64,000 nucleotides of DNA from a virus. The translations under genes and the position numbers were made by a program. The notes beneath the pieces are model-generated. The model had not been told where the DNA came from, did not search any database, and worked only from the letters and a program-made list of their open reading frames with translations. Location: the IMG/VR virus record IMGVR_UViG_3300032053_004772, positions 22,774 to 86,773 of that record, one strand, 5' to 3'. This document shows positions 5,357-57,362 of this stretch, piece after piece (position 1 is the first letter of the stretch; each line of letters begins with the position of its first letter).

Positions 5357-5366
5357 GGAGTAGATA

Positions 5367-13517: not shown

Positions 13518-13835
13518 ATGGCTGAGATTCTAGTATTCGCTCGGGATTCTACCCATCCCGATCCAAAAAAGGATAAGAACATAATGTATAAGCGAGGTGA
13601 TCCCATTGTTGCAAAATCAGATGGACATAAATGGGGAAAAATGGAATGTCTTCCTGATTTTGTCGTATTGAAAATTCCCGATATTCATGTGAAAGATGTG
13701 GAATCCTATTGCCATACAAAATATCAAGGAATGGAGATTATCTTGCGTCGGGAATATAAAATTGATTTAGATGATCTATTATTAGATACAAAAATTAAAT
13801 CTAAAAATCTACAAAATATTTTTAGGAAAAAATAA
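13518..13835 (+). CDS. Hypothetical protein at the start of an AT-rich block
   Basis: A 105-residue Lys/Asp/Ile-rich protein that overlaps the following beta-helix gene by one base. Codon use shifts sharply to A/T third positions here, unlike the tail genes on either side. Together with the next two genes it looks like a transferred unit. No function was recognised. Confidence 0.5.
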   Translation: MAEILVFARDSTHPDPKKDKNIMYKRGDPIVAKSDGHKWGKMECLPDFVVLKIPDIHVKDVESYCHTKYQGMEIILRREYKIDLDDLLLDTKIKSKNLQNIFRKK

Positions 13836-14779
13836 TGGCTTCAGTTAGTATAATTGATACAGATGGCACTGGTGATTATACCACTATAAGTGCATGGATA
13901 GCAGCAAAAGCTGGTGTTTTATCTGGAGTCACCGAGGGCCAGTGTCGAGGTGCTGATCTTTTGACGGAAACTGCTCAAATAGATATAACTGGATTCTCTA
14001 GCAATAGTGCAGCTAATTATGTGAAACTTACTGTATTGACAGGTTCTCGGCACAACGGAGTTCCCGGTGCTGGATTCAGAGTAACCGTATCTTCTGGAAA
14101 CTATGTTTTGATTAACAGAGAGGCTTATACAAGAGTTGAATATTTAGAATTGTATGGAGGTTTGGAAGGAGCTTTATATCCCGATGTGGGTGGAGCTACA
14201 AATGTACAAGTTAGTTATTGTTTGGCAAAAGGTGGAAATTCAGGAGTTTATTATTCTGAGGCTGCTGGTTCGGTGACTTTCATAAATTGTATTGCTTATG
14301 ATGGTATACAAGGATTTGCTTTAATAGCTGCTGGAGCATGGACTCTTTATAATTGTACTACTGTAGATATCACCAATGTCGGTTATCGATTAAATGATGC
14401 TAGCGGCACAATGGTTGTTATGAATTGTATTGGGTATAACTCGACTAATTATGATTTTTTAGAAACCGCAGGAATGATGACGACAAGTTATTGTTTGAGC
14501 AAAGATGCTACAGCAGATGATAATGGAGCAACAGGAGCGCAAATTAATAAAACACTTACGTTCAATAATGCCGCGGCTAATGACTTCAGACTGGCATCTA
14601 CCGACACAGATGCAATAAATAATGGTGTTGATACACCGAAGACTATATTCACTGACGATATTGATGGAACAGCTCGACCAGTTGGTGCATGGGATATTGG
14701 AGCGGATGAATATGCTGCGGCAGATAGTTCTGTGGTTCCTCAAGCAATGTCTTATTATAGGAGACTGCGGAGCGTGTAA
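13835..14779 (+). CDS. Right-handed beta-helix surface/tail protein (short form)
   Basis: A 314-residue protein with repeated short strands carrying Asn-Cys and Tyr-Asn ladders (YCLAKGG, NCIAYDG, NCTTVD, NCIGYN), typical of parallel beta-helix folds. It ends in a GAWDIGADEY segment like the C-terminal motif of choice-of-anchor Q proteins, common in secreted polysaccharide-binding or lyase-like proteins. It is likely a tail spike or appendage. No catalytic residues can be assigned. AT-rich coding and a one-base overlap with the next gene support joint acquisition. Confidence 0.62.
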   Translation: MASVSIIDTDGTGDYTTISAWIAAKAGVLSGVTEGQCRGADLLTETAQIDITGFSSNSAANYVKLTVLTGSRHNGVPGAGFRVTVSSGNYVLINREAYTRVEYLELYGGLEGALYPDVGGATNVQVSYCLAKGGNSGVYYSEAAGSVTFINCIAYDGIQGFALIAAGAWTLYNCTTVDITNVGYRLNDASGTMVVMNCIGYNSTNYDFLETAGMMTTSYCLSKDATADDNGATGAQINKTLTFNNAAANDFRLASTDTDAINNGVDTPKTIFTDDIDGTARPVGAWDIGADEYAAADSSVVPQAMSYYRRLRSV

Positions 14780-16221
14780 TGGCAACATATTATGTAGACT
14801 TTGCAACCGGAGTAGATACCAATAATGGTACTTCCACCGAGACTCCGTGGGAACACTGTCCAGGAGATGTAAATGCTACAAATAATGCTGCTATAACTCT
14901 ATCTGTGGGAGACATTATTTATTTCAAAGGTGGTATTTCTTATGTGGGGAAAATAAGTACAAATGCGAATGGTACTGCTCTAGCATATATTCAATATCTA
15001 TCAGGAGACTTGGTATCTTGGGGAACTGGTCGTGGGAAAATAGATAGCGGGAATACTCTCATTCATGGATTCTTCATTAGTCATGCTTATTTAAGATTCA
15101 AAGGATTAGAAGTTTGCAATGTAGCATATACTGCCGATTCAAGTTCGGCATTTTTTCTCAATTCAGGAGGAAGTCCGTCCTATATTGAAATCCAAGAAAA
15201 CTATATTCATGACATTCCCCGCGCTCCCGGAAATTCCGATACGGGTTATGGAGTTGAAATTGATGCTGGGCATCATATTCTAGTAGAAAAAAACATTATT
15301 GAGGATTGCGGGGAGAAAGCAATTGAGGCAACGTATAATTGTACCTATGTAACTATTCGATACAATTATATCTCAGGAGGTTATTCTCACAGTATAGTAA
15401 TTAGCGGTCAACATTGTGACACATATAATAATATTATTACTCTAAATGGTTCAACGGAAACACAAGCATATGGAATAAAATTGGATTCCGGGACGAATGC
15501 CAGTGAATATAATAAAGTTTATAATAATATCATCTATGATTGCCGATGCGGTATTGGGATTCTTAATGGTCGATTGAATGAGATTTATCATAATATCGTT
15601 TTTTATACAAGTCAAGGAACTCGACATACAGCAGAAGCTGACGCCGTAGGATTATCAATGTATGATGATGGCACAAGTGCAATAGATGTAGAAAACAATA
15701 AAATATACAACAACATATTTTATTATTCTGGGAAAATGAATGGAACAGATGCTGTGGAAATGTTTTTCAAATCAAATATTGGAAATAATAATGAGGTGAA
15801 AAATAATATATTTTATTATGATGCTTCTGATACTGATACCTTATTTCGTTATAATGATGGTTCATATTCCTATCATGATTTAACATGGTTTGAGGGAACG
15901 AATGGATTTTCTGCGGTGGGAACGGGCAATATAGCAAGTGGTAATAGAGTGTCGGCTCCAGGCTTTGTTGGGGGAACTGGGGCAACATTATTTGCTGTTT
16001 GTCCGACTGGTTTCGCAATTGATTGGACTCCCAATAATGACAATTTGCAGTTATTGGTGGACTCGTCCGCAATAGATGCAGGACTTGCATTGGCGGCCGA
16101 TTTCAATATAGATATCGACGGCATCATTCGTCCCCGGGGCGCTGATTGGGATATCGGCGCGTATGAATATGATAGCGGAATAACTCCTACCTTTAAGCAA
16201 GGAACGAGATTGAGATTCTAG
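14779..16221 (+). CDS. Right-handed beta-helix protein (tail spike-like)
   Basis: A 480-residue protein with dense beta-helix ladders of Asn/Tyr/Ile (for example YNNIIT, YNNIIYDC, HNIVFY, YNNIFYY). It ends in the same type of motif (DWDIGAYEYD) as its upstream neighbour, so the two are probably paralogues. Asn ladders are typical of pectate-lyase-like and tail spike folds that bind or cut polysaccharide. No signal peptide is present, which fits a virion part. Strongly AT-rich composition suggests import. Confidence 0.65.
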   Translation: MATYYVDFATGVDTNNGTSTETPWEHCPGDVNATNNAAITLSVGDIIYFKGGISYVGKISTNANGTALAYIQYLSGDLVSWGTGRGKIDSGNTLIHGFFISHAYLRFKGLEVCNVAYTADSSSAFFLNSGGSPSYIEIQENYIHDIPRAPGNSDTGYGVEIDAGHHILVEKNIIEDCGEKAIEATYNCTYVTIRYNYISGGYSHSIVISGQHCDTYNNIITLNGSTETQAYGIKLDSGTNASEYNKVYNNIIYDCRCGIGILNGRLNEIYHNIVFYTSQGTRHTAEADAVGLSMYDDGTSAIDVENNKIYNNIFYYSGKMNGTDAVEMFFKSNIGNNNEVKNNIFYYDASDTDTLFRYNDGSYSYHDLTWFEGTNGFSAVGTGNIASGNRVSAPGFVGGTGATLFAVCPTGFAIDWTPNNDNLQLLVDSSAIDAGLALAADFNIDIDGIIRPRGADWDIGAYEYDSGITPTFKQGTRLRF

Positions 16222-16928: not shown

Positions 16929-19775
16929 ATGGCGATCACCAGACTAGCCGGCGCCTGGGCTAATGGATCTATTTCCTGCACTCCATCCTTGCCCTCAACT
17001 CCACAGGCGGGGGACCTCCACGTCATCTACATCGGCGGCAAGCCCTATAGCATCACGATTGCCGAGCTGGCCGGCTGGACTCTCATCCCTGGAACCGACG
17101 GGCAGAACGGCACGGTAGCGAGCGGTACGGATGTTGGCTCGGTTCGGTGGGCGGCATTTTACCGATATTGGCAGTCGGGCGACGATGAAACGCCGACCTT
17201 CACAGTCACCGGAGGGAACGTAGTCCTTGGGGTGGCTGTACGTTTCCGCCCGACGGCTGGCTATAGCATCGATACGCCCGTAGGCTGCAAGGGCTGGGAT
17301 AACACCAGCGGACTCGATTACTTGGCGACGATGGACGCCAACCCGGGGATCACCACCGCCGATGTCTTGAACAACTTCACTACAATCGCAGGAAACAACG
17401 CGACTTTCACCGTCCCAACGATCACAGCAACCGGGGCCACGATAGGAGCGGTCACCGAGAGTCCGGCGACGGAAGGCACTACCACCACCGGGAACGACCT
17501 GGAGGCTTCCGCGTCCACCGCCGTGGTTTCTTCGGGAAACGCATCCGCCGCGCCTGTGGTGGGCTGGACTCTTGTTTCCGCATCGCAGACCGGAGGCGGG
17601 GCATTTGTTCGAGTCCGAGAAATTCTAATTCTAATTTATGCCGGTTCTGGCAAGATTCAAACGTCAGGTAGTGCTACTGTTACTACTACTGCTGATTATA
17701 CCTTCGCTGCTTCAGGGAAGATTCAGACTTCTGGTTCAGGAGCTTCATCTCTTTCGCAAACTGTTAATCTCGCGGTATTACAGGGTGCGGGAACCTTCTA
17801 CGGTACACTTCAATCGGTTCAAGTTAGCGTTACTCTTGATCAATCAGCTCCGATTGCTGGCGGTGGTACACTTCAAACGCCAACTGTTGAGATTGAGACT
17901 GCATACGTCTACGGTGGATCCGGTCAGATCCGAGCGTCAGGTGCAGGTTCAGCAATCCTTTCGAGTATCTACGAAGTAAGTGGTCAAGGTCTGATAAGCA
18001 CTTCCGGTGCTGCTACTACTCTTTGCACGGCAATCTTTTCTGAGACAGGATCCGGTATAATTCAAACTAGCGGCGCAGGAAGTTTCACTTTTTCTTCTAT
18101 TTTCGTTCATTCGAGTGAAGGAACTATTCTCATATCTGGAAGTGCAGACTGTTCTTTCGTCGGAGAGAATAGTCAGATTGGTTCCGGATTAGTTGAAGTT
18201 AGCGGTACTGCGGCAGTTTCCGTATCTGCTATCATTAATCTAGAGACACTTCTGAGTGGCGGAACCTTCTATGGTACGCTACAATCGGTACAGATTAGTG
18301 TCACTCTTGATCAATCTAATCCTTTACCTGGCGGCGGTACACTTTACGCTCCTGCGGCTGAGATTACAGGATATACCTACGTTGGATCTGGCAAGATTCA
18401 GACGTCAGGTAGTGCCTCAGCATCTGTTGAGAGTGAGGCTACTTGTGTAGGATCCGGTAAGATTCAACTCTCTGGTTCCGCTATCGTAAACCTCTCTGCT
18501 ATCGTCAATTTAGCGGCACTGCAAGGAATCGGAACCTTCTACGGTACTGTAGTCGGAATCGATATCGATCTTTCTGCTGATGGTCCTTTGACCGGTGGTG
18601 GTACTCTACACGCATTAACCGTTGAGATTAGTAAGAGTCTGGTAGGTTCTGGTCTTGTTCGTATACAAGGAGCAGGTGTATGCTCGTTCACTTCAATCTA
18701 CGCTGTATCTGGCGGCGGTTTAATTCAGGTTCAAGGAACGAGTCCTTCGCTGTATGTTCCGGATTTTACTCAAATAGGTTCTGGTCTTGTTCAGCTTCTC
18801 GGAAGCGCTGCCACTGAGATTGGTCAGAAGTTCTTCCTCTTCTCTAGCAGCGGACTTATATCCGTTACCGGGAGTGCGGATATCTTCGTATCCGGAGATA
18901 ACTCTCAGGTTGGATCAGGCCTTGTAAGTCTGTCGGGTTCCGCTGCTAGCGAAATTGGTATCGCTCACTTTATCTACACACCTACCGGTCTAATTGTACT
19001 CTCCGGTGTCGGTGCGTCTCAGCAAGTGCACACTTTCTTAGTGAGTGGATCCGGACTCGTTCAAGCGTTGGGTCAAGCGGTATCAGAGTATACTCATACG
19101 TTCTCGCAGATCGGTTCTGGTTTAGTTCAGTTACTGGGGTCTGCTGTCACACTAATCGGTTCGAAGGACTTCGTCTACACCGGTTCCGGTTTGATCTCAT
19201 TACTCGGGGCTGCTGAGTATCAGCTCTCGGGAATAACGGTATATTCCGGAAGTGGTCTAATTCGTCTTTCCGGAACCGCTTTGACTGAGTATTCGACGAT
19301 TATGAGCTTCATCGGTAGCGGTTTAGCTCGTCTGCAAGGATCAGGGATTGGTGTACAGACGTTTGTCTATCCGTTTAGTGGATCGGGACAGATACGCACT
19401 TTCGGATCAGGACAGATTGATTACACGAAGATCTTTGAGGTCGCTGGTACCGGGTTGATACAACTTCTCGGTGGATCTTCGTCTCTTTATACCGCAATCT
19501 TCTCAGCTGACGGTAGCGGTATCTTCATAGTAACCGGAACGTTCGATGCGTATGCCGCCTTAAGAGAATACGAGTGCATTTTCCAGGGAGTTATCTCTGT
19601 AAGCGGTGCTGCGGAAGTTACGGTGTTATATCCTCCAACGGTAGAGTTGTGGTTCTATACTCCAGTAACGACCGTTGCAGAAATTCAATCTCGTGTTACA
19701 ACGCTGATGAAGCTTTTCACGAAGGTTTCTAAGCAAGTGGACGTAGATACTAAGATCGAGGTGAGGCATGGCTGA
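16929..19775 (+). CDS. Long repeat fibre protein with GC-rich N-terminal domain
   Basis: A 948-residue protein after AGAGGAG. Residues 1-235 form a beta-rich, aromatic-rich domain from markedly GC-rich DNA (to about 17630). Residues about 236-880 are a long array of 22-25-residue units built on GSGLVQLLGSA-like turns, with three interspersed copies of a longer module containing GTFYGTLQSVQ. The last 50 residues form a helical tail. Such arrays usually make extended beta-solenoid or fibrous stalks, so this is probably a long tail fibre shaft with an exchangeable head domain. Confidence 0.62.
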   Translation: MAITRLAGAWANGSISCTPSLPSTPQAGDLHVIYIGGKPYSITIAELAGWTLIPGTDGQNGTVASGTDVGSVRWAAFYRYWQSGDDETPTFTVTGGNVVLGVAVRFRPTAGYSIDTPVGCKGWDNTSGLDYLATMDANPGITTADVLNNFTTIAGNNATFTVPTITATGATIGAVTESPATEGTTTTGNDLEASASTAVVSSGNASAAPVVGWTLVSASQTGGGAFVRVREILILIYAGSGKIQTSGSATVTTTADYTFAASGKIQTSGSGASSLSQTVNLAVLQGAGTFYGTLQSVQVSVTLDQSAPIAGGGTLQTPTVEIETAYVYGGSGQIRASGAGSAILSSIYEVSGQGLISTSGAATTLCTAIFSETGSGIIQTSGAGSFTFSSIFVHSSEGTILISGSADCSFVGENSQIGSGLVEVSGTAAVSVSAIINLETLLSGGTFYGTLQSVQISVTLDQSNPLPGGGTLYAPAAEITGYTYVGSGKIQTSGSASASVESEATCVGSGKIQLSGSAIVNLSAIVNLAALQGIGTFYGTVVGIDIDLSADGPLTGGGTLHALTVEISKSLVGSGLVRIQGAGVCSFTSIYAVSGGGLIQVQGTSPSLYVPDFTQIGSGLVQLLGSAATEIGQKFFLFSSSGLISVTGSADIFVSGDNSQVGSGLVSLSGSAASEIGIAHFIYTPTGLIVLSGVGASQQVHTFLVSGSGLVQALGQAVSEYTHTFSQIGSGLVQLLGSAVTLIGSKDFVYTGSGLISLLGAAEYQLSGITVYSGSGLIRLSGTALTEYSTIMSFIGSGLARLQGSGIGVQTFVYPFSGSGQIRTFGSGQIDYTKIFEVAGTGLIQLLGGSSSLYTAIFSADGSGIFIVTGTFDAYAALREYECIFQGVISVSGAAEVTVLYPPTVELWFYTPVTTVAEIQSRVTTLMKLFTKVSKQVDVDTKIEVRHG
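17635..19570 (+). repeat. GSG-type protein repeat array
   Basis: More than twenty degenerate units of 22-25 codons contain a GSG(L/K)(V/I)Q core followed by (L/T)(L/S)GSA. Three longer inserts with GTFYGT start near 17790, 18261 and 18531, and all carry a GGGTL segment. DNA similarity is partial, so copies diverged after duplication. Confidence 0.8.
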
Positions 19776-20079
19776 ACTATTTCAAGATGGTCAAATCTAT
19801 AAGAATCAAACGAAACTTCGTATTCGATGTGAGTGCGGCGATATTCTTGGAGCAGCTTCGGCTCTTGTGGGTTTTAAGGATCCAGACGGCCTCTTCGGTT
19901 CGTGGACAGGTGTAATCGAGGATATGACACCGACTGGACATGTGTATAAGGATATTACCGCGACTGGGCAACTAAACGTGAGTGGGGAGTGGAGATTCTG
20001 GCCTATCGTCACGTTTAGTGATGGAGGTGTTGCGCCAGGTAAGGCGATCAGGTTAAGGATCTACGATCAGGGGGAGTAA
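19768..20079 (+). CDS. Small structural-type protein closing the tail operon
   Basis: A 103-residue protein whose ATG overlaps the fibre gene by eight bases. It is beta-rich, with a GSWTGVIEDM turn region and a WRFWPIV strand, and resembles small phage proteins of immunoglobulin-like form that accompany fibres. No catalytic motif. Confidence 0.5.
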   Translation: MAELFQDGQIYKNQTKLRIRCECGDILGAASALVGFKDPDGLFGSWTGVIEDMTPTGHVYKDITATGQLNVSGEWRFWPIVTFSDGGVAPGKAIRLRIYDQGE

Positions 20080-20086
20080 TACCTCT

Positions 20087-20692
20087 ATGGGAAAGATTCT
20101 GTTCATCGGGGCTCACACAGATGACGTGGAATTCGGTTGCGGTGGTACAATCGCAAAGATGATCGAGCGCGGAGAGGAAGTATCTGTCGCTGCTCTCTCT
20201 TGGGGATCCTCTCTGTATCCTGAGATGCACCTAGATCAGGAGTTTCAGAACTCGATGCAGATTTTCGGTGTGAAGGCGACGTTTCTAGGAGACTATCAGA
20301 TTCGTCTCTTTCCACTTAGTCGACATAAGATTCTGCAGCATTTGCTGCTAACTCGAGAGCAGGTGCAGCCGGACGTTGTGTTCTTTCCATCCGTTGTCGA
20401 TATACATCAAGATCATCAGACAGTTTATCAAGAGAGTCTTCGAGCGTTTAAGAGAGTCACACACTTCAACTACGAGTTGTTCTGGAACTGTCCAGACTTT
20501 CACCCTCAGTACTACGTCGAGTTGAGCGAGGAGAACTTCACGACTAAAGTGAGAGCGCTGGAGTGTTACGTCTCACAGAAGAATCGTGACTACTTTGATC
20601 TGCACAAGATTCGGGTGTGGGCTGAGTTTCGAGGAGCACAAGTAGGTAAGCAACTTGCCGAAGCGTTTGAAGTAGGAAAGCTTCTCGGATGA
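20087..20692 (+). CDS. PIG-L/LmbE family deacetylase
   Basis: A 201-residue enzyme with AHTDDVE near residues 8-14 (the family AHPDDE metal/catalytic motif, Pro replaced by Thr) and HQDHQ near residue 106 (the HxDH motif). The family are zinc-dependent N-deacetylases of N-acetylglucosamine-containing lipids and metabolites. It overlaps the ATP-grasp gene by GATGA, and the PHP gene follows, so the three probably act in one pathway. Because they read out of the tail operon before a terminator, expression is probably late. The substrate is unknown. A virion glycan or a wall sugar is possible. Confidence 0.82.
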   Translation: MGKILFIGAHTDDVEFGCGGTIAKMIERGEEVSVAALSWGSSLYPEMHLDQEFQNSMQIFGVKATFLGDYQIRLFPLSRHKILQHLLLTREQVQPDVVFFPSVVDIHQDHQTVYQESLRAFKRVTHFNYELFWNCPDFHPQYYVELSEENFTTKVRALECYVSQKNRDYFDLHKIRVWAEFRGAQVGKQLAEAFEVGKLLG

Positions 20693-21747
20693 AACTGCCT
20701 CGAGTCTTAATCACGGGGGTAGGTGCTCCCGGTACTAGGGGTACGATCTTCTGTCTTCAGAAGAACTTCGATCGGCAGAAGGTGTTTATCCTTGGTACAG
20801 ACTCCGACGTTAGCGCAGTAGGTCGACACTTTGTGGATAGGTTCTTCACGATTCCGTATGCTGAGACTGGAATGCGATATCTGAAAGCTCTGCAGGAGTT
20901 ATGTGAAGAGCATCGAGTTGACGTGATACTTCCTCAGAACACTGCGGAGTTGCTCATCCTTGCCTGTCATCGAGAGTCATTCAAAAGAACTCGCATCTGT
21001 GTTTCTAGCGGTGATGCGATCTGTAAGTCGAACCACAAGATTCGACTGTTACAGGAGTTTCAGAGGGCGAGTCTTCCTTTTCCGACGTACACAGTTGTTA
21101 CAAATGAAGCCGAGTTGATACAGGGTTTAGCCGGATTAAGCTACCCGAGAGAGCAAGTCGTAGTAAAGATTCCAGACGGTTCTGGAGGAAGAGGTGTTCG
21201 AATTATTTCGTCTCGACCTTATAACTGGCACAGTTTCGTGCATGAGAAGCCGAACGCTCTAGAGTGGAACTTAGATCAGCTACTTAAAGTTGCGCGTGAA
21301 GGTTTTCCTTCTCCTCTCTTACTAACAGAGTACCTTCCTGGGAGAGAGTACTCTGTTGACGTGTTTAGAGGACTGAGTACAGAGATTGCGATACCTCGAG
21401 TTCGACTACGAATCCGTAGTGGTATCACGTTTGACACTGAGATCGTTCGGCACGAAGAGATCGAGCGACAGTCTTTGATTGCTGCTCGTGCAATCGATCT
21501 TCGGTACGCGTTCGGCTTTCAGTTTCGAGAGAATGCTCAAGGTAAAGCGCGTGTCATAGAATGCAATCCGAGAGTGCAGGGTACGATGGTAGCCAGTTAC
21601 TTTGCAGGTGCAAACATTCCGTGGATGGCAATACGAGAGGCTCTCGGTCTTACGCAGCATCCAGAGGTTCAGATTCAGACTGCGCGTTTCACTCGATATT
21701 GGGGAGGAGTTGGACTTGTCCACAACGAACGGCCGATCAGTATCTAG
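20689..21747 (+). CDS. ATP-grasp ligase (carbamoyl-phosphate synthase-like)
   Basis: A 352-residue protein with a pre-ATP-grasp Rossmann-like N-terminus (ITGVGAPGTRG near 8-18), a Gly-rich ATP loop (KIPDGSGGRGV near 162), EYLPGREYSVD near 214 and the metal-binding ECNPRVQGT near 288. This is the CarB-like ATP-grasp class that activates a carboxylate and joins it to an amine. Next to a deacetylase that would expose an amine, it could add an amino acid or other acid to a sugar. It overlaps both neighbours. Confidence 0.82.
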   Translation: MKLPRVLITGVGAPGTRGTIFCLQKNFDRQKVFILGTDSDVSAVGRHFVDRFFTIPYAETGMRYLKALQELCEEHRVDVILPQNTAELLILACHRESFKRTRICVSSGDAICKSNHKIRLLQEFQRASLPFPTYTVVTNEAELIQGLAGLSYPREQVVVKIPDGSGGRGVRIISSRPYNWHSFVHEKPNALEWNLDQLLKVAREGFPSPLLLTEYLPGREYSVDVFRGLSTEIAIPRVRLRIRSGITFDTEIVRHEEIERQSLIAARAIDLRYAFGFQFRENAQGKARVIECNPRVQGTMVASYFAGANIPWMAIREALGLTQHPEVQIQTARFTRYWGGVGLVHNERPISI

Positions 21748-22357
21748 CGTTTTCGGTAGGAGATACCTGTTTCATGTACACTCTCAGTTTGCAGATGGAT
21801 CGGCTTCCGTGGAGGACTACCTTCGACTCGCACAAGCGCACGATCTAGAGACCGTCACGATTTTGGAACATGCACGTCGCATACCGTCTTACAGTGTACA
21901 GCGATATGCAGACACCATTCGAGAGACCTCGAATCGGTTAGGGATCAGAGCGCTAGTAGGATTTGAGGTTAAGCTGGATTCGGATGGTTCGTTGGACATC
22001 AACGATGAGACACTGGCTCTCGCGGATGTAGTGGGATTAGCGGTTCACAAGTTTCCGAATGACTTCATGATGTTTATGAAGGCGTTCTCCTCGGTACTAC
22101 GATTGTGCAGCGACAAGATTCGAGTGTGGGTTCATCCGGGACTATGGTTCGTTCGGAGGGGAATTCTCGAGGAGAAGTTTTTGGTGTATACAGCGATGTT
22201 GAATATCGCTGTAAGTGAGGGTTGGTTTATAGAGTACAATCTGAAGTACAACTTGATCCCGAGATCGTGGCGGAAACTTGTACATCGGAGTAAGTTGGTA
22301 ACCGGCGTTGATGCTCACTCTATAGATGATGTAAGAAAGCATATTCATCTACTATAG
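21716..22357 (+). CDS. PHP-domain metal-dependent hydrolase
   Basis: A 213-residue protein with the PHP metal ligands in order: HVHSQFADG (residues about 20-28), EHARR, GFEVKLD, WVHPG and GVDAHS. PHP proteins hydrolyse phosphoesters (histidinol phosphatase, polymerase-associated) or related bonds. The start chosen is TTG 21716 after GGGGAGGAG at 21701-21709, so the gene overlaps the ATP-grasp gene by 32 bases. It ends 53 bases before a strong terminator. It is probably the third enzyme of the PIG-L/ATP-grasp unit. Confidence 0.8.
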   Translation: MSTTNGRSVSSVFGRRYLFHVHSQFADGSASVEDYLRLAQAHDLETVTILEHARRIPSYSVQRYADTIRETSNRLGIRALVGFEVKLDSDGSLDINDETLALADVVGLAVHKFPNDFMMFMKAFSSVLRLCSDKIRVWVHPGLWFVRRGILEEKFLVYTAMLNIAVSEGWFIEYNLKYNLIPRSWRKLVHRSKLVTGVDAHSIDDVRKHIHLL

Positions 22358-22410
22358 CTCTTTATAACTTATCTCTCAGTGGCTTGTACTATTATTACCG
22401 GGAGAAACTC

Positions 22411-22440
22411 AGAGATGTTAACAAACATCTCTGTTTTTTT
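22411..22440 (+). terminator. Intrinsic terminator ending the tail/PIG-L operon
   Basis: A perfect 9-bp stem, AGAGATGTT (22411-22419) with AACATCTCT (22424-22432), closes a 4-base loop and is followed by G and seven T. It lies 53 bases after the PHP gene. Confidence 0.88.
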
Positions 22441-22516
22441 GGTTATCGGGTGAGGGATCGTCTCGGTAATATCTTCGTGGTACAAAAAGTGAATGTGTCG
22501 GGTCGCTCTATTCACC

Positions 22517-22612: not shown

Positions 22613-22641
22613 TTGATTTTTCTTTCAATCTATATTATAAT
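22613..22641 (+). promoter_or_regulatory. Strong sigma70-type promoter for the amidoligase operon
   Basis: TTGATT (22613-22618), a 17-base spacer and a perfect TATAAT (22636-22641) lie 38 bases before the amidoligase ATG. The flanks CCTCTTGATTTT and TATATTATAAT recur almost unchanged at 29753-29784, so this is a repeated phage promoter type read by host housekeeping polymerase. It begins the second transcription unit. Confidence 0.85.
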
Positions 22642-22679: not shown

Positions 22680-23567
22680 ATGAAGGTAGAGTTCAACAAA
22701 GATAGGACGTTCGGAGTAGAGTTCGAAGTGATCGGAAACTACGACGCTGCGCGCTATCAAGTGTTGCAAGGGATCAAGAAACTCTATCGGGAAGGGCGCA
22801 TCACTCACGACGTTGAGGATATCGGTTGCTACGAGCACACAGGAAGCGGGAACGTTAAGTGGGTTATTAAGAACGACACCAGCTTACACGGACACGACAG
22901 GGTCGGGTTCGAGGTGGTTACGCCGGTCCTTAAGGGGTTGGAGGGACTGTACGAGCTCGAGCAAGTAGCAAAGGTGCTTAACAAGCACTCGCACATAGAG
23001 CAGTGCTGCGGTGGGCACGTACATCACGGTGTGAGCGATCTCAATAAGCAGGCGTTCAAGAACCTATACGGTCTGATGAAGAAGTACGAGAGAGTGGTGG
23101 ACTACTTCGTAGCACCCAGCCGGAGACGCAATCAGTATTGCAGCCACCTTCCAGAGGCGGACGTGTTTTTCAGAGACACCAGTGCAGAGCGGCTCTATCA
23201 TCAGTACGATGCCGAGCGGTTCTATCGAGCAGTGATTAGCAGGCTCGGGCGGAGAGCAGTGAACTTCAGCTCCTATGCGATCAGAGGAACGATAGAGTTT
23301 CGGCAGCACCAGGGGACGGTGGACTTTGTGAAGATCAAGCAGTGGATCACTCTGACGCAGGCGTTTATTGAGACGGCCAAGCGGAGGAGCAGTGTTCAGT
23401 ATCAGGTGCGCGACGCACTCTCGATCGACAATCTCTTTGCGGATCTCAATTGGGTGAAGGTCTCTGTGACGGACGAGATCAGTGAGGAGATCGTTCAGGC
23501 GCGGACGTTCCTGCGGGAGCGCTATCGGACGTTCAGGCAGGCCGGCGCGACAGAAGCGGTCGCGTAA
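22680..23567 (+). CDS. Amidoligase (COOH-NH2 ligase, glutamine synthetase-like fold)
   Basis: A 295-residue protein with FGVEFEVIG near residues 10-18, GCYEH..GSGNVKWV near 51, FEVVTPVL near 79, GGHVHHG near 105 and TIEFRQHQGT near 203. These are the conserved blocks of the Amidoligase_2 family, which form amide bonds using ATP. It opens the second operon behind the strong promoter and is followed by a small gene and a class II glutamine amidotransferase. That pairing is recurrent in phages and mobile elements and predicted to make small peptides or modify proteins. The substrate is unknown. Confidence 0.8.
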   Translation: MKVEFNKDRTFGVEFEVIGNYDAARYQVLQGIKKLYREGRITHDVEDIGCYEHTGSGNVKWVIKNDTSLHGHDRVGFEVVTPVLKGLEGLYELEQVAKVLNKHSHIEQCCGGHVHHGVSDLNKQAFKNLYGLMKKYERVVDYFVAPSRRRNQYCSHLPEADVFFRDTSAERLYHQYDAERFYRAVISRLGRRAVNFSSYAIRGTIEFRQHQGTVDFVKIKQWITLTQAFIETAKRRSSVQYQVRDALSIDNLFADLNWVKVSVTDEISEEIVQARTFLRERYRTFRQAGATEAVA

Positions 23568-23809: not shown

Positions 23810-24565
23810 ATGTGCGGAATCACTGGCTTTGTTAAGACCGCCGATCGAACGTACGCAACTGAGCCGGTGCTGCGCTCCGTGTTTGAGGTGATGCAGATTC
23901 GTGGAGAGCACGCTAGTGGAATCGCTGCGTTGATGGGAAGCAAGAAGAAGCGAGAGATCGGAGTTGCTAAGGGTAACGTTCCGTCGACCGAGTTCGTACA
24001 GAGAGACGAGTGGAAGGAGTTCGTTCCTCGCGCGAACGTGCTGATCGCGCATACGAGATACGCTGTCTACGGGAATCCGTCCGACAACATTAACAACCAT
24101 CCGCACAGCACCGACGACTACAAGTACTCGTTGATCCACAACGGAATAGTGCACGATCGACCTAAGAGCGTTCGAGGGTTGCTTAAGAGCAAATGTGACT
24201 CTGAGATACTCTTACGGTTGCTCGAAAAGAACGGAGTTGTGAAGGGATTCCGAAAGATCGCGCATATGAAGCGTTCCTCTGTAGCAGTGCTAGTGATCAA
24301 GGCCGACACTGGAGTACTTTATGCGTATCGGAACGAACACTCGCCGCTGGTGTACTGCGATCTGACGACCGAGATCGGAGGGTTGCTCTTTGCTAGCACG
24401 GCCGAGTTGATGGTAGAAGGTATTCGAAAGGCCGGATTCGATTTCGGAGATATCGAACGGCGCTGTGCTCCTATAATTCCAAACGTGGTGTACGCGTTCA
24501 CAACTAAGCGCAGGTATCCGAAGACGAAAGTTCTTACGGAGAGCGTTGTTCAGACAGTGACGTAG
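23810..24565 (+). CDS. Class II glutamine amidotransferase
   Basis: A 251-residue protein starting MCGITGFV, with Cys2 as N-terminal nucleophile after Met removal. IRGEHASGIA (residues about 30-39), HTRYAVYGN near 81 and HPHSTDD..LIHNG near 97 match the Ntn-hydrolase glutaminase domain of GlmS/AsnB-type enzymes. No synthetase domain is attached, so it probably supplies ammonia to the amidoligase encoded upstream, or acts as a stand-alone amidohydrolase. Confidence 0.85.
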   Translation: MCGITGFVKTADRTYATEPVLRSVFEVMQIRGEHASGIAALMGSKKKREIGVAKGNVPSTEFVQRDEWKEFVPRANVLIAHTRYAVYGNPSDNINNHPHSTDDYKYSLIHNGIVHDRPKSVRGLLKSKCDSEILLRLLEKNGVVKGFRKIAHMKRSSVAVLVIKADTGVLYAYRNEHSPLVYCDLTTEIGGLLFASTAELMVEGIRKAGFDFGDIERRCAPIIPNVVYAFTTKRRYPKTKVLTESVVQTVT

Positions 24566-30802: not shown

Positions 30803-31462
30803 ATGCGTCGGGTCGTCTTGATTCTGTCGGGTGGAATGGATTCCACGACTCTTCTTGCTGTGTTGAAGTCAGAACACGATGAGGTGCGTACGCTGACGTT
30901 CAACTACGGTTCGAAGCATAACGAACGAGAGAATTACGCCGCGGATTTGCTTTCAACTACGTACGGCGTAGCAAACAATCTGATCTCTCTGCCGTTTATC
31001 GACAAGCTGTTCAGCTCCGATCTATTGAAGAGCGGAGAAGACGTTCCGAGCGGACACTACACCGATGAGTCACAGCGTCGGACAGTAGTGCCTTTTCGAA
31101 ACGGAATCATGCTGTCGATCGCGGTTGGTTTCGCTGAGTCGATTGGTTTCGACTACGTCGCGTTTGCGAATCACGCCGGTGATCACGCGATCTATCCTGA
31201 CTGTAGAGAGAGATTCGTCTCCGCGCTGGATGCGGCCGCACAAGCGGGAACGTATCTTGGAGTGAAGGTGGTCTCTCCGTTCTTGATGAAGACGAAGACG
31301 GACATCGTTCGGATAGGACATCGTATCGGAGTTCCTTATCATCTCACGTACTCATGCTATCGCGGAGGTGTTAAACACTGTGGTACGTGTGGCACGTGTA
31401 CAGAGCGGAAGGAAGCGTTTCGAGATGCCGGCGTGAAGGATCCGACGGAGTATATAGTATGA
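30803..31462 (+). CDS. queC: 7-cyano-7-deazaguanine (preQ0) synthase QueC
   Basis: A 219-residue enzyme with the PP-loop LSGGMDSTT (about 8-16), FNYGSKHNERE near 34, VPFRNG near 96 and a four-cysteine zinc site (CYRGGVKHCGTCGTC, about 188-202). All QueC hallmarks are intact. It converts 7-carboxy-7-deazaguanine to preQ0 using ATP and ammonia. In a phage this normally feeds DNA modification rather than tRNA queuosine. It overlaps the aminotransferase gene by four bases and heads a five-gene cluster ending with a DpdA-like gene. Confidence 0.93.
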   Translation: MRRVVLILSGGMDSTTLLAVLKSEHDEVRTLTFNYGSKHNERENYAADLLSTTYGVANNLISLPFIDKLFSSDLLKSGEDVPSGHYTDESQRRTVVPFRNGIMLSIAVGFAESIGFDYVAFANHAGDHAIYPDCRERFVSALDAAAQAGTYLGVKVVSPFLMKTKTDIVRIGHRIGVPYHLTYSCYRGGVKHCGTCGTCTERKEAFRDAGVKDPTEYIV

Positions 31463-32442
31463 TTCGTTTGCACAAGAACGAGTACTCTGGAGAGTATCCG
31501 GATTCATCGTTTGAAGTGTTAAGACATTACTGCGATGGAACACAACTGAAGAAGCAATTAGCGAAGTACTTCGGAGTGTTGGAGGAGTGGGTCGCTCTGG
31601 AACAAGGAGCGACTCTTGCTCTTGAAAGAATATTCTCGGAGTTTAAGGAGTCTCCGATTCAGATTCCGGCTGACGTGTGGCCGACGTATTTTACGATCTT
31701 AGAACACACTCATAGAAACAAGATCGTGCGTTTGCGTGATGTGTATCTGTCGATTGAGATTACGAGAAGGTTTGTGCAAACTCCTCCACGTCTAACGCCT
31801 CTGATGAGGGATGGATTGTTTGTGATTACCTCTCCAAGTAATCCAGATGGAAGTTTCGTTCCGCAGTCAGAGATTGAGTATCTGTGTAACGAGAAGCGAG
31901 AACTTACTGTGTTGTTGGATATTGCGTATCACGACTACGCAACGACGCCCTACGATATCTCAACGCTGCTGGCACGGCACTCGAATTTGATCCTGGTGTG
32001 GTCGTTCTCAAAGACGTTTGGTTTAGCGGGTGCGAGAGTTGGAGTAATTCTTTGCTCAGATAAAAAATTGCTAGGTAGTCTTTTTCTCTCTCCACTCGGT
32101 ATTAACTCCTATAGTGAACTGCTGTGCTTGCAGGCGTTAGAGAAGCGTGAGTTCTTTGTAGAACAGGTTCAGCGTTTGCGAGGGAGACGCGATCGGTTTA
32201 TCGACACCGTGAATCAGGAGATGACTTCATTTACAGCATACTACTCGGAGGGAAACTTCTGTCTGTTGAAACCACACTCTATGAGATCAGAAGACGCACA
32301 AAGCCGACTGCGCGCGCGAGGTGTAGCGGTCAGACACTTTCCTTCGACGATTTGGGATAAGTATTTGAGAGTAACGATCGGAACCGAAACAGAGATGGTG
32401 TATCTCGTTCATCAGCTGGAGGAGCTAGATGGAAGAGTTTAG
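31459..32442 (+). CDS. PLP-dependent aminotransferase (HisC-like, fold type I)
   Basis: A 327-residue protein beginning MIRLHKNEY like histidinol-phosphate aminotransferases. It has TSPSNPDGSF near 126, the VLLDIAYHDY Asp-pyridine segment near 150, and the lysine motif WSFSKTFGLAGARVG near 181, where Lys carries PLP. It is inserted between QueC and an ArcS-like gene with overlaps on both sides. Aminotransferases are not part of the known preQ0 or archaeosine routes, so it may add or remove an amine on the 7-deazaguanine side chain or an attached group. Serving a separate pathway is possible. Confidence 0.85.
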   Translation: MIRLHKNEYSGEYPDSSFEVLRHYCDGTQLKKQLAKYFGVLEEWVALEQGATLALERIFSEFKESPIQIPADVWPTYFTILEHTHRNKIVRLRDVYLSIEITRRFVQTPPRLTPLMRDGLFVITSPSNPDGSFVPQSEIEYLCNEKRELTVLLDIAYHDYATTPYDISTLLARHSNLILVWSFSKTFGLAGARVGVILCSDKKLLGSLFLSPLGINSYSELLCLQALEKREFFVEQVQRLRGRRDRFIDTVNQEMTSFTAYYSEGNFCLLKPHSMRSEDAQSRLRARGVAVRHFPSTIWDKYLRVTIGTETEMVYLVHQLEELDGRV

Positions 32443-33049: not shown

Positions 33050-33651
33050 TTGCAGTGGAGGGCGCTGATTGCACTGGAAAGAGCATACTCGTGGAGAGAC
33101 TGCTTCAAATGCGACCGGAGTTGTGTCACACGGTTGAAGACCATCCGATCGATACGCACTTAGACGCTGTGGCAGATTGGTACGTGAATCCTGAGGATGA
33201 ACACGTGAAGTTTTATCTATATCTTGCGGAGACAGTGCATCTGAGTGTACAGCATCGGAGTTTGTTACAGAAGTATCCGGGAAAGCATGTCATTCTAGAT
33301 CGTAGTGCTTTTTCGATGCTGGCGTACTCAGAGATGTTTACATTACCGATGTCGAGAGAGTGTGCAGATAAAATCCTTCGGACGTTCATCTCTACGATTC
33401 AGATGCCAGACGTCATTCTGTATCTTTATGCTTTATCGGGTACGATCGAGCGACGATTAAGTGCTCGAGGTGATCGATCGGGAGTTTATGAGAAGAGGGC
33501 TCGGACGGATTCGTCGTTCTGGAATCGCTTACATCTCGCGTATCGAAAGTGGTTCGATCTAACGTCTGTAGCTGTAATACCGATTGATACCGACTCGTTA
33601 AGTATTCCGGACGTTTATAATCAGGTCGTTGCTATTTTGGAGGGTTTATGA
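33037..33651 (+). CDS. Deoxynucleoside monophosphate kinase (thymidylate kinase-like)
   Basis: A 204-residue P-loop kinase with VEGADCTGKS (residues 7-16), ILDRSAFSMLAYSEM near 87 (the DR(Y/S) motif of TMP kinases) and a lid-like ERRLSARGDRS near 142. GTG start overlapping the ArcS-like gene. Its location between two modification genes suggests phosphorylation of a modified or salvaged deoxynucleotide, but plain dTMP phosphorylation is equally possible. Confidence 0.75.
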   Translation: MGRLIAVEGADCTGKSILVERLLQMRPELCHTVEDHPIDTHLDAVADWYVNPEDEHVKFYLYLAETVHLSVQHRSLLQKYPGKHVILDRSAFSMLAYSEMFTLPMSRECADKILRTFISTIQMPDVILYLYALSGTIERRLSARGDRSGVYEKRARTDSSFWNRLHLAYRKWFDLTSVAVIPIDTDSLSIPDVYNQVVAILEGL

Positions 33652-52923: not shown

Positions 52924-53216
52924 CAATACAAGGAAAGGTAAAACTCTCCGTGAAGATCGTGCACAAGGACTTTCAGGAATGTGATGTTTGGTGTCCTGTG
53001 TGCGGTCATGAGATGGCTCCGGAGACAGATATGTTCGAGAATCGGTATCGCGCTTACATCTGTATGCACGATGGTACACAGTTGTACGTTGTAGTGTACA
53101 GGAGGAAACCAAGTGCCAAAGGTTGGATTGGTGGGTCTGGGGAACATGGGAAAGGTACACTATCGTATCTTGCAGCAGCAACAGCGGGTGTGGAATCTCG
53201 AGTTACGAGTCTGTGA
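52785..53216 (+). CDS. Small zinc-binding hypothetical protein
   Basis: A 143-residue protein after AGGGAG, with CPVCGHEM near 69 and a later Cys near 89 that may bind zinc. It overlaps the oxidoreductase gene by 104 bases; its Ser/Gly/Thr-rich last 30 residues are doubtful. Unknown role. Confidence 0.45.
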   Translation: MVTFLWDTQHHHVVQENTARELERWRSSRGNFYWKNDEFSIITRIVTIQGKVKLSVKIVHKDFQECDVWCPVCGHEMAPETDMFENRYRAYICMHDGTQLYVVVYRRKPSAKGWIGGSGEHGKGTLSYLAAATAGVESRVTSL

Positions 53217-54039
53217 TCCGTGCGTCTCTGATCCGTTGATCGCGAAGTCAGATTGGATGTCGTACGAAGATCTTCTGAGTTGGGCTGAGGTGATCATCTT
53301 AGCGACTCCGACGGATACTCACGTGCAACTCGCGCAGCAAGCTGTAGATTGCGGACACTCTGTTTTTGTAGAGAAGCCACTAGCGTTCTCTCTTAAAGAG
53401 GCGAAGAAGTTGAAGTTAAAGGATTCTTCTATCGTTGTAGTGGGATATGTGGAGCGGTTCAGCGCGATCGTTCAAGAGCTGCGAAGGTTGTTGAGGCTTA
53501 CCGCTCGTACTAACGATCTTCCGCTCTTCATCACAACTTCCAGAGTCAATAACGTAGCAGTTCATAGAGCAGAGGGATTGTTGATAGATCTCGGTGTTCA
53601 TGATTTCGATCTGATCACTCATCTGTTTGGAGATCCGAGTTGGATCGACCGAGCGTTAGTTCTTACTTCGAATGGTATTGATGTGTTTGCTAGCGTTGAT
53701 CTGCGACTCGATGCGAGTCTGAGCGTGAACACGAGACTGTCGTGGATCGATGTATCGAAAGCGAGACAGATCTGTGTGTACTCGAAGGACTCTGTGATCC
53801 AGACCGATCTGCTGAATTCTGAGATCGTGTGGTTCGATCGACAGAAGCGCTGCGAGCGATATCGGTGGCAAGCTCGAGGTGGAGAACCAGTGTTAGCTGA
53901 GTTGGAGATGTTCTTTCACTTGGTTAATCGCGGTGGAGAGCGTCCACCAGATGATCAGTTAGGTTTGAAGTCTCTCGCGGTTGCAGATGCCGTACGGATA
54001 GCTCGCGACGGATACGCTACGAGGATTCAATATGAATGA
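53113..54039 (+). CDS. Gfo/Idh/MocA oxidoreductase (WbpB-like)
   Basis: A 308-residue NAD(P)-dependent enzyme from GTG 53113, after AGGAGG at 53100. VGLGNMGKVHYRIL (5-18) is the dinucleotide fold, LATPTDTHVQLA near 58, VFVEKPLAFS near 80 has the EKP lysine, and DLGVHDFDL near 158 the substrate site. Followed by a WbpD-type acyltransferase with an eight-base overlap. In the UDP-ManNAc3NAcA route this enzyme type oxidises C3 before amination. Other sugar oxidations are possible. Confidence 0.82.
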   Translation: MPKVGLVGLGNMGKVHYRILQQQQRVWNLELRVCDPCVSDPLIAKSDWMSYEDLLSWAEVIILATPTDTHVQLAQQAVDCGHSVFVEKPLAFSLKEAKKLKLKDSSIVVVGYVERFSAIVQELRRLLRLTARTNDLPLFITTSRVNNVAVHRAEGLLIDLGVHDFDLITHLFGDPSWIDRALVLTSNGIDVFASVDLRLDASLSVNTRLSWIDVSKARQICVYSKDSVIQTDLLNSEIVWFDRQKRCERYRWQARGGEPVLAELEMFFHLVNRGGERPPDDQLGLKSLAVADAVRIARDGYATRIQYE

Positions 54040-54511
54040 GATGGAAGACGTAGGTAACGGACGTCAGATCAGCAAGTTCGCTGTCGTCGAGACTGGTGTA
54101 TTGATTGAGGAGAGCGTGCAGATTTGGCACTGGACTCACATTCGGGAGAGAGCTTCAATCGGTGAGGGAACGAGGATCGGGAAGGGTGTGTACATCGATC
54201 ATGACGTTCATATCGGTCGTCGTTGCAAGATTCAGAATAACGTCTCGATCTATTTCGGAGTGAAGATCGAGGATGAGGTGTTCGTAGGTCCTCACGTTTG
54301 TTTCACAAACGATCGCAATCCTCGAGCGGTTGGAGAGTGGTCTATCGTTCCGACGATCGTTAAGAGAGGTGCGTCTATTGGAGCTAACAGCACGATAGTG
54401 AGCGGTGTGACTATTGGAGAAGGAGCACTAATTGGAGCTGGTTCTGTTGTGACGAAGGACGTACCTCCGAGAGAGGTGTGGGTTGGGAATCCTGCAAGGA
54501 GATTACGATGA
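54032..54511 (+). CDS. Left-handed beta-helix N-acetyltransferase (WbpD/WlbB-like)
   Basis: A 159-residue hexapeptide-repeat protein with IWHWTHIRERASIGEGT, KIQNNVSIYFGVKIED, GPHVCFTNDRNPR and GAGSVVTKDVPP. These blocks closely follow the WbpD/WlbB family, which acetylates the 3-amino group of UDP-GlcNAc(3NH2)A. Its coupling to the Gfo/Idh gene, with a WbpA-like gene 1.6 kb on, strongly suggests one nucleotide-sugar pathway. Confidence 0.83.
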   Translation: MNEMEDVGNGRQISKFAVVETGVLIEESVQIWHWTHIRERASIGEGTRIGKGVYIDHDVHIGRRCKIQNNVSIYFGVKIEDEVFVGPHVCFTNDRNPRAVGEWSIVPTIVKRGASIGANSTIVSGVTIGEGALIGAGSVVTKDVPPREVWVGNPARRLR

Positions 54512-55344: not shown

Positions 55345-56085
55345 ATGAAGGTATGCTGGGTTGATGTTGAGACAACTGGTACCGATCCAGCGACGCATGG
55401 TATTTGGCAAGTCGCGTTCCTAATCGAGATCGACAAGGTGATCGCGGAGAGAACGCAGTTCACGATGAATCCCGTGGATAGCGAAATTGATCCGGCGCTG
55501 ATTCAGAATCACATGCTTGATGAGAAGCTAGTTCGAGCTTTTAAACTGACAGATCGAGACACGATGCCGATGATCCGAGCGGTGCTGCAAAAGTACGTGG
55601 ATCCTTACGACCGAGCAGATAAGTTTACTCCGGCAGGTTACAACGTCAAGTTCGATCTGGACTTTCTTGAGGCTCTGTGGTTGCGATGTGGAGACAAGTA
55701 CTTCTACTCGTATTTCTCTCACTTTCCGGTAGATGTTTTGTATCTGACGACCGTTGCAGTGTGGATGGGAAAGATTCCGGTACCCGCGAATCGACAACTC
55801 GGTACGATTGTTACGGAGTGTCATATCTCAACAGAGGGTAGTCGATTACACGATGCCATGTCGGATGTGAATCTGACCTACAAACTAGCACAACATCTAA
55901 AGAGAGTGGTATCTCCACCGCGTCGAATGCTTCTTGAAAAGAGGCTCTTCTTTGCACGAGTACGCTGCGATGATCCAGATACACCGGTAGACTATCGGTT
56001 GATGACTCTGGAGGAAGCGTTGGTGGAGAATCAGTCGTTGACCGATCCGGAGGAAGCGTGGGTAGAAATGGAGATCGAACAGTGA
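55345..56085 (+). CDS. DEDDh 3'-5' exonuclease (DnaQ-like)
   Basis: A 246-residue protein with WVDVETTGTDP (5-15, ExoI), GYNVKFDLDFLEALW near 93 (ExoII) and GSRLHDAMSDVNLTYKLA near 171 (ExoIII, His and Asp). This is a proofreading/RNase T-type exonuclease. The polymerase already has an exonuclease, so this may process RNA or DNA ends. Overlaps the dehydrogenase gene. Confidence 0.82.
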   Translation: MKVCWVDVETTGTDPATHGIWQVAFLIEIDKVIAERTQFTMNPVDSEIDPALIQNHMLDEKLVRAFKLTDRDTMPMIRAVLQKYVDPYDRADKFTPAGYNVKFDLDFLEALWLRCGDKYFYSYFSHFPVDVLYLTTVAVWMGKIPVPANRQLGTIVTECHISTEGSRLHDAMSDVNLTYKLAQHLKRVVSPPRRMLLEKRLFFARVRCDDPDTPVDYRLMTLEEALVENQSLTDPEEAWVEMEIEQ

Positions 56086-57362
56086 GCGAGACAACTGTCG
56101 TTATCGGTCTTGGAACGGTTGGATTAGCAGTTGCTGTAGCGTTCGCTCAAGTAGGTCATGCCGTAATAGGAGTAGAACGTGTTGATGATCGTCGAAAACG
56201 CATCTTAGATAGAGATCTTTCTGATGAGCAGGAACCTCAATTAGAGAGTGCTTTGCACGCAGTTTTTCGAGATGAACGTCTTCGTATAGCAGCTACTTTT
56301 GCGCAGATACAGCAAAAAGTCGATAACGTAATTGTGTGTGTCGGAGTGACTTGGGAAGACGGGCAGTTGCAAGATGCAGAGTTTCTGTGTCTTATGAAAC
56401 AGATCGGAGAGTATGTTGATACTGAAGTACTGGTTAGTGTAGAAACGACTCTCCCTCCGGGAACGATGGAGCGAAAAGTAGCTCCCTTCTTCGCTCATAA
56501 AGGTAGACTTGTCTACGCTCCTGAAAGAGTTGCCGCGGGGCGTTTGCTGTCGAGTATTCGCGTGATGCCTCGTATTATTTCTGGGTTCGATGCAGAAAGT
56601 TTGAGGCGAGGCCTGTTGTTGTATAGTCAGGTTTGTGATCGGGTGGTATCTGTGAGTTCTATGACAACTGCGGAGATGATCAAAGTTGCGGAGAACGCGT
56701 ATCGAGACGTCAATATAGCCTTCGCGAACGAAGTGTCGGTGATATGCTACGATTTGGGTGTGGACGTATTAGAGGTACGTCGATGTGTGAACGACCTACC
56801 TTCTATCGAGATACCTGATACAGTTACCCGAATGACGAACCCCGTTCGTAATATGCATATTCCAGGAATTGGAGTAGGCGGTTATTGCATTCCGAAAGAC
56901 TCGAGGTTGCTGTTGCACGGAGGAGAGTATTCTCGTCTTTTCCTTGGGAGTGTGCCGTCTGTGGTTCGGAGTGCTCGAGAGGTTAATGATTGGATGCCGT
57001 CTCACATTACGTATCGAGTTGCTCGTCAAGTAGTGTTGCATGATGTGCAGAGGGCGTTGCGCGGTGTAAAAGGTTTGACCGTACTGATATTAGGCTCTGG
57101 GTTTGCTCCAGGAGTAAAAGATCAAAGGAATTCTCCATCGGTTGCTCTGCGCGATTTACTCCAAGACGCAGAGTATCATGTAGTTGTACATGATCCGTTG
57201 TACGATCCAACGTTGCCGCCTCGCGCGGATGTTGTTGTGTTAGCGACAGCTCACGAGTGGTATAAAGAGAGGTTGAAGGAGGATATATGGCAGGCGTTGA
57301 TCAGAAACCGCGTGTTATGGTGTCAGGACCGGGACCTGTGGAAAGACTTGTCCGGAAAGTAG
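56082..57362 (+). CDS. UDP-sugar 6-dehydrogenase (WbpA/UDP-GlcNAc dehydrogenase-like)
   Basis: A 426-residue enzyme from GTG 56082. VIGLGTVGLAVAVAFA (6-21) is the NAD fold, ETTLPPGT near 123, APERVAAGR near 147 and EMIKVAENAYRD near 203 (helix with Lys and Asn) form the central domain, and GVGGYCIPKDSRLLL near 263 holds the catalytic Cys. It oxidises C6 of a UDP-HexNAc. With WbpB- and WbpD-like genes upstream it suggests a phage-encoded 2,3-diacetamido-uronate route. Other hexoses such as UDP-Glc or GDP-Man are alternatives. Confidence 0.85.
   Translation: MSETTVVIGLGTVGLAVAVAFAQVGHAVIGVERVDDRRKRILDRDLSDEQEPQLESALHAVFRDERLRIAATFAQIQQKVDNVIVCVGVTWEDGQLQDAEFLCLMKQIGEYVDTEVLVSVETTLPPGTMERKVAPFFAHKGRLVYAPERVAAGRLLSSIRVMPRIISGFDAESLRRGLLLYSQVCDRVVSVSSMTTAEMIKVAENAYRDVNIAFANEVSVICYDLGVDVLEVRRCVNDLPSIEIPDTVTRMTNPVRNMHIPGIGVGGYCIPKDSRLLLHGGEYSRLFLGSVPSVVRSAREVNDWMPSHITYRVARQVVLHDVQRALRGVKGLTVLILGSGFAPGVKDQRNSPSVALRDLLQDAEYHVVVHDPLYDPTLPPRADVVVLATAHEWYKERLKEDIWQALIRNRVLWCQDRDLWKDLSGK

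Follow-up and report, generated by a model that had tools for sequence, protein, structure and literature searches.

Three overlapping genes at the end of the late block of a phage genome, predicted to encode a PIG-L/LmbE-type deacetylase, an ATP-grasp ligase and a PHP phosphoesterase, probably work together as the glycan-tailoring module of a glycosylation pathway that the phage itself encodes. The genes lie in a stretch of 64,000 nucleotides, here called the window, which corresponds to positions 22774-86773 of an 86,773-base virus record and to which coordinates refer unless stated otherwise.

The trio closes the late block

The trio is located behind the tail genes, on the same strand. The PIG-L gene (20087..20692, + strand, 201 aa) and the ATP-grasp gene (20689..21747, + strand, 352 aa) have in common an ATGA that holds the stop of the former and the start of the latter, and the PHP gene (21716..22357, + strand, about 213 aa) overlaps the 3' end of the ATP-grasp gene. 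The start of the PHP gene is likely the TTG at 21716, within the ATP-grasp gene and six bases 3' of GGGGAGGAG; the longest open reading frame, starting at 21602 and encoding 251 aa, was rejected as over-long. A gene of 103 aa (19768..20079, + strand) ends 7 bases upstream of the PIG-L gene and has a weak homologue near the trio of the sister phage described below (phmmer E 6e-6).

The strong terminator proposed in the original prediction was confirmed. This intrinsic terminator (22410..22440, + strand) closes the late block with a 10-bp stem and a T7 tract at 22410-22433, and the stretch 22395-22445 showed a folding energy of -20.6 kcal/mol (z -5.2 versus shuffles). From the last tail gene to the end of the trio, the sequence showed no strong candidate for a promoter or a terminator, so late read-through from the tail genes appears plausible; the best promoter-like site nearby on the same strand, at 22613, lies beyond the terminator.

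Several other genes were observed around the trio. Within the tail block, the region 13835-16221 encodes two right-handed beta-helix proteins (PF13229), possible depolymerase-like tail spikes, and the region 16929-19775 encodes a 948-aa tail-side protein with repeated GSGLVQLSGSA-type units and no useful family match. Right after the terminator follow an Amidoligase_2 gene (22680-23567; PF12224, 6e-27) and, behind it, a stand-alone class II glutamine amidotransferase domain (23810-24565); no match to these two genes was seen in the sister phage.

The predicted enzymes have intact active sites

The PIG-L protein matched PF02585 (E 1e-16, 62 bits versus a cut-off of 28) and phrog_11796 (2e-27). 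Both motifs that mark PIG-L/LmbE deacetylases, (A/P)H-x-D-D and H-x-D-H, were present together with the profile score above cut-off: H10-T-D12-D13 and H107-x-D109-H110 were invariant in an alignment of 18 relatives, leaving the Zn site H10/D13/H110 and the base D12 intact. The protein is therefore predicted to be a deacetylase, acting on an N-acetyl sugar. The nearest named model was BshB1 (TIGR04001, E 1e-19), and identity with this bacillithiol deacetylase was rejected at 70.8 bits versus a cut-off of 182.5.

The ATP-grasp protein matched PF15632 (E 1e-26, 93.5 bits versus a cut-off of 29.1) and also has a PylC-like N-domain (PF21360). K160, E291, N293, P294 and R295 were invariant in 25 relatives, and the family hallmarks, namely the fold, the ATP-binding Lys and the Mg-binding Glu/Asn, were all found. 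The structural model (pLDDT 92.9) matched PurK, 2pn1, biotin carboxylase, PurT and PylC in the PDB, with the best folds spanning both PurK/biotin carboxylase and PylC/PurT. Such a modelled fold points to ATP-dependent activation of a carboxylate or of bicarbonate, and does not say which; as carboxylases (PurK, biotin carboxylase) were among the matches, N-carboxylation or a similar reaction is possible. The ATP-grasp enzymes of Ter operons (ATPgrasp_Ter) resemble the trio protein in having the same Pfam domain PF15632 and a HAD partner gene. True Ter loci, however, carry phosphoribosyltransferase, HpcH/HpaI-like and TerD genes, and membership in a Ter operon was rejected, as none of these partners was seen among the neighbouring ORFs scanned.

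The PHP protein matched PF02811 (E 7e-8) and keeps the metal-site residues of its family (H-x-H, D, E-H, H, H, E and D-x-H) as well as its fold, the model (pLDDT 94.8) matching the PolX PHP domain, YcdX and histidinol-phosphate phosphatase. Profiles, residue checks and alignments of relatives thus bore out the earlier description of three overlapping genes with intact catalytic motifs: every catalytic residue named there is in place, and relatives keep these residues with little or no variation.

The trio recurs in a sister phage

In viral contigs, single-sequence scans gave no relatives. Alignment-based scans did: members of the ATP-grasp clade turned up in seven contigs, and members of the PIG-L subfamily in 44. 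A tblastn search of 50,697 phage records showed PIG-L in 32 and no ATP-grasp or PHP relative. The entire trio was found in UViG_3300033153_015023 (80 kb), a collinear sister phage. The two phages have matching portal, tail tube, tape measure and tail proteins, and their capsid proteins are 75% identical. The three-gene order that had been proposed as something to look for in other phages was thus found at the same late-operon end, behind tail and small membrane-type genes, with the next genes on the other strand.

The trio proteins of the two phages are 41-45% identical, and the GC content of the trio follows that of its own phage (48% versus 49% here, 35% versus 36% in the sister phage). Because a syntenic trio at 41-45% identity is present in a second phage, the association of the three genes is far above chance, and this divergence, together with the matched base composition, shows that the genes have been long retained.

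Parts of the trio were found in further viral contigs. In a third one, L044, ATP-grasp and PHP genes lie just before portal-like and capsid-like genes; the genes ahead of them resemble acetyltransferases and glycosyltransferases, and the record also contains a DegT gene. Except for the trio members and DegT, these names were given by eye or by similarity to genes of the present phage. A probable homing endonuclease gene, also read by eye, separates ATP-grasp from PHP in this contig (9014-9742). In L040, glycosyltransferase-like ORFs, PIG-L and ATP-grasp lie between a terminase-like gene and the portal gene (PF04860, 7e-88). Besides the sister phage, PIG-L was near ATP-grasp in about eight viral contigs, among which L047, L048, L085, L086 and L090 have more distant ATP-grasps. 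The neighbours of viral PIG-L genes were mostly hexapeptide acyltransferases, GT2, WbqC-like proteins, methyltransferases and epimerases.

The trio is also a cellular cassette

Searches of plasmid proteins led to Halobaculum sp. XH14, whose plasmid NZ_CP134951.1 has counterparts of all three genes (30-38% identity), likewise overlapping and arranged in the same order. This trio adjoins sugar dehydrogenase, Gfo/Idh, DegT and DapH/GlmU-like genes, annotated as the four enzyme classes of the Wbp type that the phage also encodes. It belongs to an archaeal plasmid polysaccharide locus, not to a phage, and we know of no functional study of it.

When genomes were scanned with an alignment of two ATP-grasp sequences, 30 loci were obtained from many bacterial and archaeal phyla, and their flanks were then scanned. 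The trio was in order in nine loci, L002 (Halobaculum), L010, L011, L012, L015, L025, L027, L038 and L039, where L010 was counted with its PIG-L gene truncated by the contig end. All three genes were also present in L020, L022 and L037, with PIG-L on the opposite strand, and PIG-L was near ATP-grasp in 21 of the 30. As a control, more distant haloarchaeal ATP-grasp homologues (L105-L114) were surveyed, and PIG-L and PHP were absent within 1.5 kb in all ten. The position at the tail end and the conserved order, seen in cells as well as in the sister phage, support the original view of the trio as one unit in the late block, and the possibility that its homologues always occur singly did not hold.

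In place of PHP, a HAD hydrolase follows ATP-grasp in L016, L017 (Bacteroidales), L023, L028, L030 and L032, and is annotated there in Haloarcula; at several cellular loci of the ATP-grasp clade both PHP and HAD were absent. Mainly because a HAD hydrolase takes the place of PHP in many cellular loci, a phosphatase is the more likely identity of the third enzyme, which the original prediction simply called a hydrolase.

Neighbours of the cellular loci included glycosyltransferases, DegT, sugar dehydrogenases and sugar transferases. The strict ATP-grasp clade was rare, with 1, 3, 2 and 1 matching genomes in samples of about 300 genomes from each of four groups (E 1e-130 or better, seed genomes included), and the host phyla were mixed on the ATP-grasp tree, which fits either a single acquisition of the gene by phages or several. 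The trio is thus a cellular cassette that is rare, has spread horizontally and lies for the most part in polysaccharide loci. It is not phage-specific, as the same trio was found in bacterial and archaeal loci.

The phage carries its own sugar genes

Outside the window, the genes that immediately follow the major capsid gene encode a 699-aa GT2-TPR-GT4 protein, a DegT aminotransferase and an NAD-dependent epimerase/dehydratase, and the same cluster contains a GT4, a B12/radical-SAM protein and a GT2. A capsid-adjacent glycan cluster is present in both syntenic phages, with identities of 63% for the 699-aa protein, 64% for GT2, 38% for GT4 and 25% for the epimerase; in the present phage the trio lies about 23 kb away from it. 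No match to the B12-binding radical SAM protein (L042 825-2060, G000 19824-21059) was seen in the sister phage.

Three further sugar genes are located in the window. The first (53113..54039, + strand) encodes a Gfo/Idh/MocA oxidoreductase, a candidate WbpB/WlbA-type sugar 3-dehydrogenase, which matched NF040723 at 5e-30, below the family cut-off, and had inositol 2-dehydrogenase as its best PDB match. The second (54032..54511, + strand) encodes a left-handed beta-helix acetyltransferase, a candidate WbpD/WlbB (TIGR03570, 2e-28), 50% identical in the sister phage; its best PDB match is 3mqg (2e-39), a WlbB structure. The third (56058..57362, + strand) encodes a nucleotide-sugar 6-dehydrogenase (UDP-HexNAc to uronic acid), a candidate WbpA, with 243 bits to TIGR03026 (cut-off 190) and a PDB match to UDP-ManNAcA dehydrogenase (3e-41).

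The WbpA-B-E-D route leads to UDP-2,3-diacetamido-glucuronic acid (PMC10622841). Counting DegT, the phage genome contains all four enzyme classes of this route, although not together in a single operon, and the assignment is strong for the acetyltransferase and the 6-dehydrogenase only, the WbpB-like protein and DegT being placed at class level. The phage may encode a complete Wbp-type pathway. In the sister phage, the DegT gene was absent, no clear match to the 6-dehydrogenase was found and a Gfo/Idh protein was weakly similar (27% over 134 aa); the sugar route is therefore not conserved as a set between the two phages.

Proposed role in glycan tailoring

From the gene order, intact residues, folds, recurrence, synteny and co-encoded sugar genes, we infer the following course. 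PIG-L would strip the N-acetyl group from an amino sugar, either in an intermediate or in the assembled glycan. The ATP-grasp enzyme would then activate a carboxylate as an acyl phosphate and form a new amide, by acylation of the freed amine or by amidation of a uronic-acid carboxylate, and the PHP enzyme would take a phosphate off the substrate or the product. The sugar or glycan would be supplied by the 6-dehydrogenase, the Gfo/Idh dehydrogenase, the DegT aminotransferase and the WlbB-like acetyltransferase of the phage, with a contribution from the several glycosyltransferases behind the capsid gene. Deacetylation followed by ATP-driven ligation, as originally proposed, is still the most economical reading.

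The acceptor would most likely be a virion protein and less likely the host surface. The virion is favoured over the host wall because glycosyltransferases are adjacent to the capsid gene in two phages and glycan genes are adjacent to the portal or terminase gene in two others.

Two experimentally studied systems resemble this course. In the Wbp/Vim linking-sugar pathway of Porphyromonas gingivalis and Tannerella forsythia, a 2,3-diacetamido-uronic acid is built by the Wbp enzymes, the proposed deacetylase VimE frees the C-2 amine, and VimA adds serine or glycine in amide linkage (PMC7468200). Deacetylation and then a new amide on a diacetamido-uronic acid would also be the logic of the trio. 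The Vim enzymes, however, are of other families, CE4 for the deacetylase VimE and GNAT/FemAB-like for the transferase VimA, whereas the trio has PIG-L, ATP-grasp and an extra phosphatase, and is in a phage; neither a CE4 VimE nor a GNAT/FemAB VimA was found among the phage genes scanned. In the HS:2 capsule of Campylobacter jejuni, the ATP-grasp enzyme Cj1438C joins a phosphorylated amino alcohol to glucuronic acid as an amide, and the HAD phosphatase Cj1435 then removes the phosphate (PMC11800379). This ligase-phosphatase pair would correspond to the ATP-grasp gene and the HAD/PHP slot of the trio, but Cj1438C is a TupA-like ATP-grasp acting on the glucuronic-acid carboxylate, and the Campylobacter system is without a deacetylase step. 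By analogy, the trio reads as a combination of both logics, with deacetylase, ATP-grasp ligase and phosphatase. A HisC/CobD-like aminotransferase in the window (31387-32442; TIGR01141, 8e-43) could make a phosphorylated amine; as the phospho-amine supplier of a Campylobacter-like route it was left out, because it overlaps a QueC-like gene and is unmatched in the sister phage.

A more specific version of the proposal is tentative and, in our estimate, well short of an even chance. Through a Wbp/Vim-like phage pathway, the capsid or tail would receive a diamino-uronic acid that bears an acyl or aminoacyl amide, made by the ATP-grasp enzyme, in place of one N-acetyl group. PIG-L and ATP-grasp would be non-homologous stand-ins for VimE and VimA, and the interchangeable PHP/HAD phosphatase would imply a phosphorylated building block.

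Mycobacteriophages have natural glycans on their capsids, and these are reported to hinder recognition by antibodies (Freeman et al. 2023, cited in PMC12691614). The likeness lies in the capsid glycans there and, for the present phage, in gene position only, that is, a cluster behind the capsid gene. To our knowledge, the trio has not been reported in mycobacteriophage virion glycosylation. Among the open-access papers searched, none was found that pairs PIG-L with ATP-grasp, with or without PHP. The original remark that no such phage pathway is known needs qualification: glycan clusters that include this PIG-L subfamily are frequent in phages, as the 44 viral contigs indicate, and virion glycosylation is published, while the deacetylase/ligase/phosphatase module within such clusters appears to be undescribed in those papers.

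These results connect three 'metabolic' phage genes that had no annotation with a glycan pathway that is concrete and testable, and point to an apparently undescribed cassette common to bacteria, archaea and phages. If the virion is the acceptor, phages would be able to alter their surface sugars chemically, in ways that go further than the mere transfer of glycosyl groups, with a bearing on adsorption, stability and immune recognition, and the phage would offer a tractable system for the cellular role of the cassette.

Alternative explanations

The strongest competitor, which we consider rather unlikely, is that the trio modifies the host surface late in infection, serving superinfection exclusion or preventing progeny from re-adsorbing to debris. 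The cellular relatives in polysaccharide loci fit this explanation, as does a PIG-L gene beside sugar genes in phages such as DLP3 (PMC7326821). However, the capsid gene of each of the two syntenic phages is immediately followed by glycosyltransferase genes, which in other phages lie beside the portal or terminase gene, and none of the genes examined was recognised as a membrane gene of the GtrA/Wzx/Wzy type.

Hypermodification of DNA bases, with the trio completing a side chain on phage DNA, is improbable. The phage has FolE, QueD, QueE and QueC-like genes, a set that suggests 7-deazaguanine-modified DNA, and DNA hypermodification includes ATP-driven amide chemistry; yet glycan genes, not DNA-modification genes, accompany the cellular relatives, and the trio is located in the late tail block. 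The 7-deazaguanine set, named by eye from translations, comprises QueC-like (30803-31462) and TGT-like (33648-34430) genes in the window and QueD, QueE and FolE-like genes outside it (G000 4183-5662); the sister phage also has QueD, FolE and an apparent QueE.

Slightly less probable still is a soluble protective metabolite of the mycothiol or bacillithiol kind, made by a glycosyltransferase, deacetylase, ligase and phosphatase. The mycothiol enzymes MshA/MshA2/MshB/MshC are of parallel classes and BshB1 is the nearest named model to PIG-L, but its score of 71 stands against a cut-off of 182, neither BshC nor MshC turned up in the genes scanned, and the neighbours are polymer-glycan genes. Chance passengers without function in the phage are very improbable: the rare, patchy trio and the mixed host phyla indicate that horizontal transfer is common, but the intact residues, the two-phage synteny at that level of divergence and the phage-matched GC show long retention under selection.
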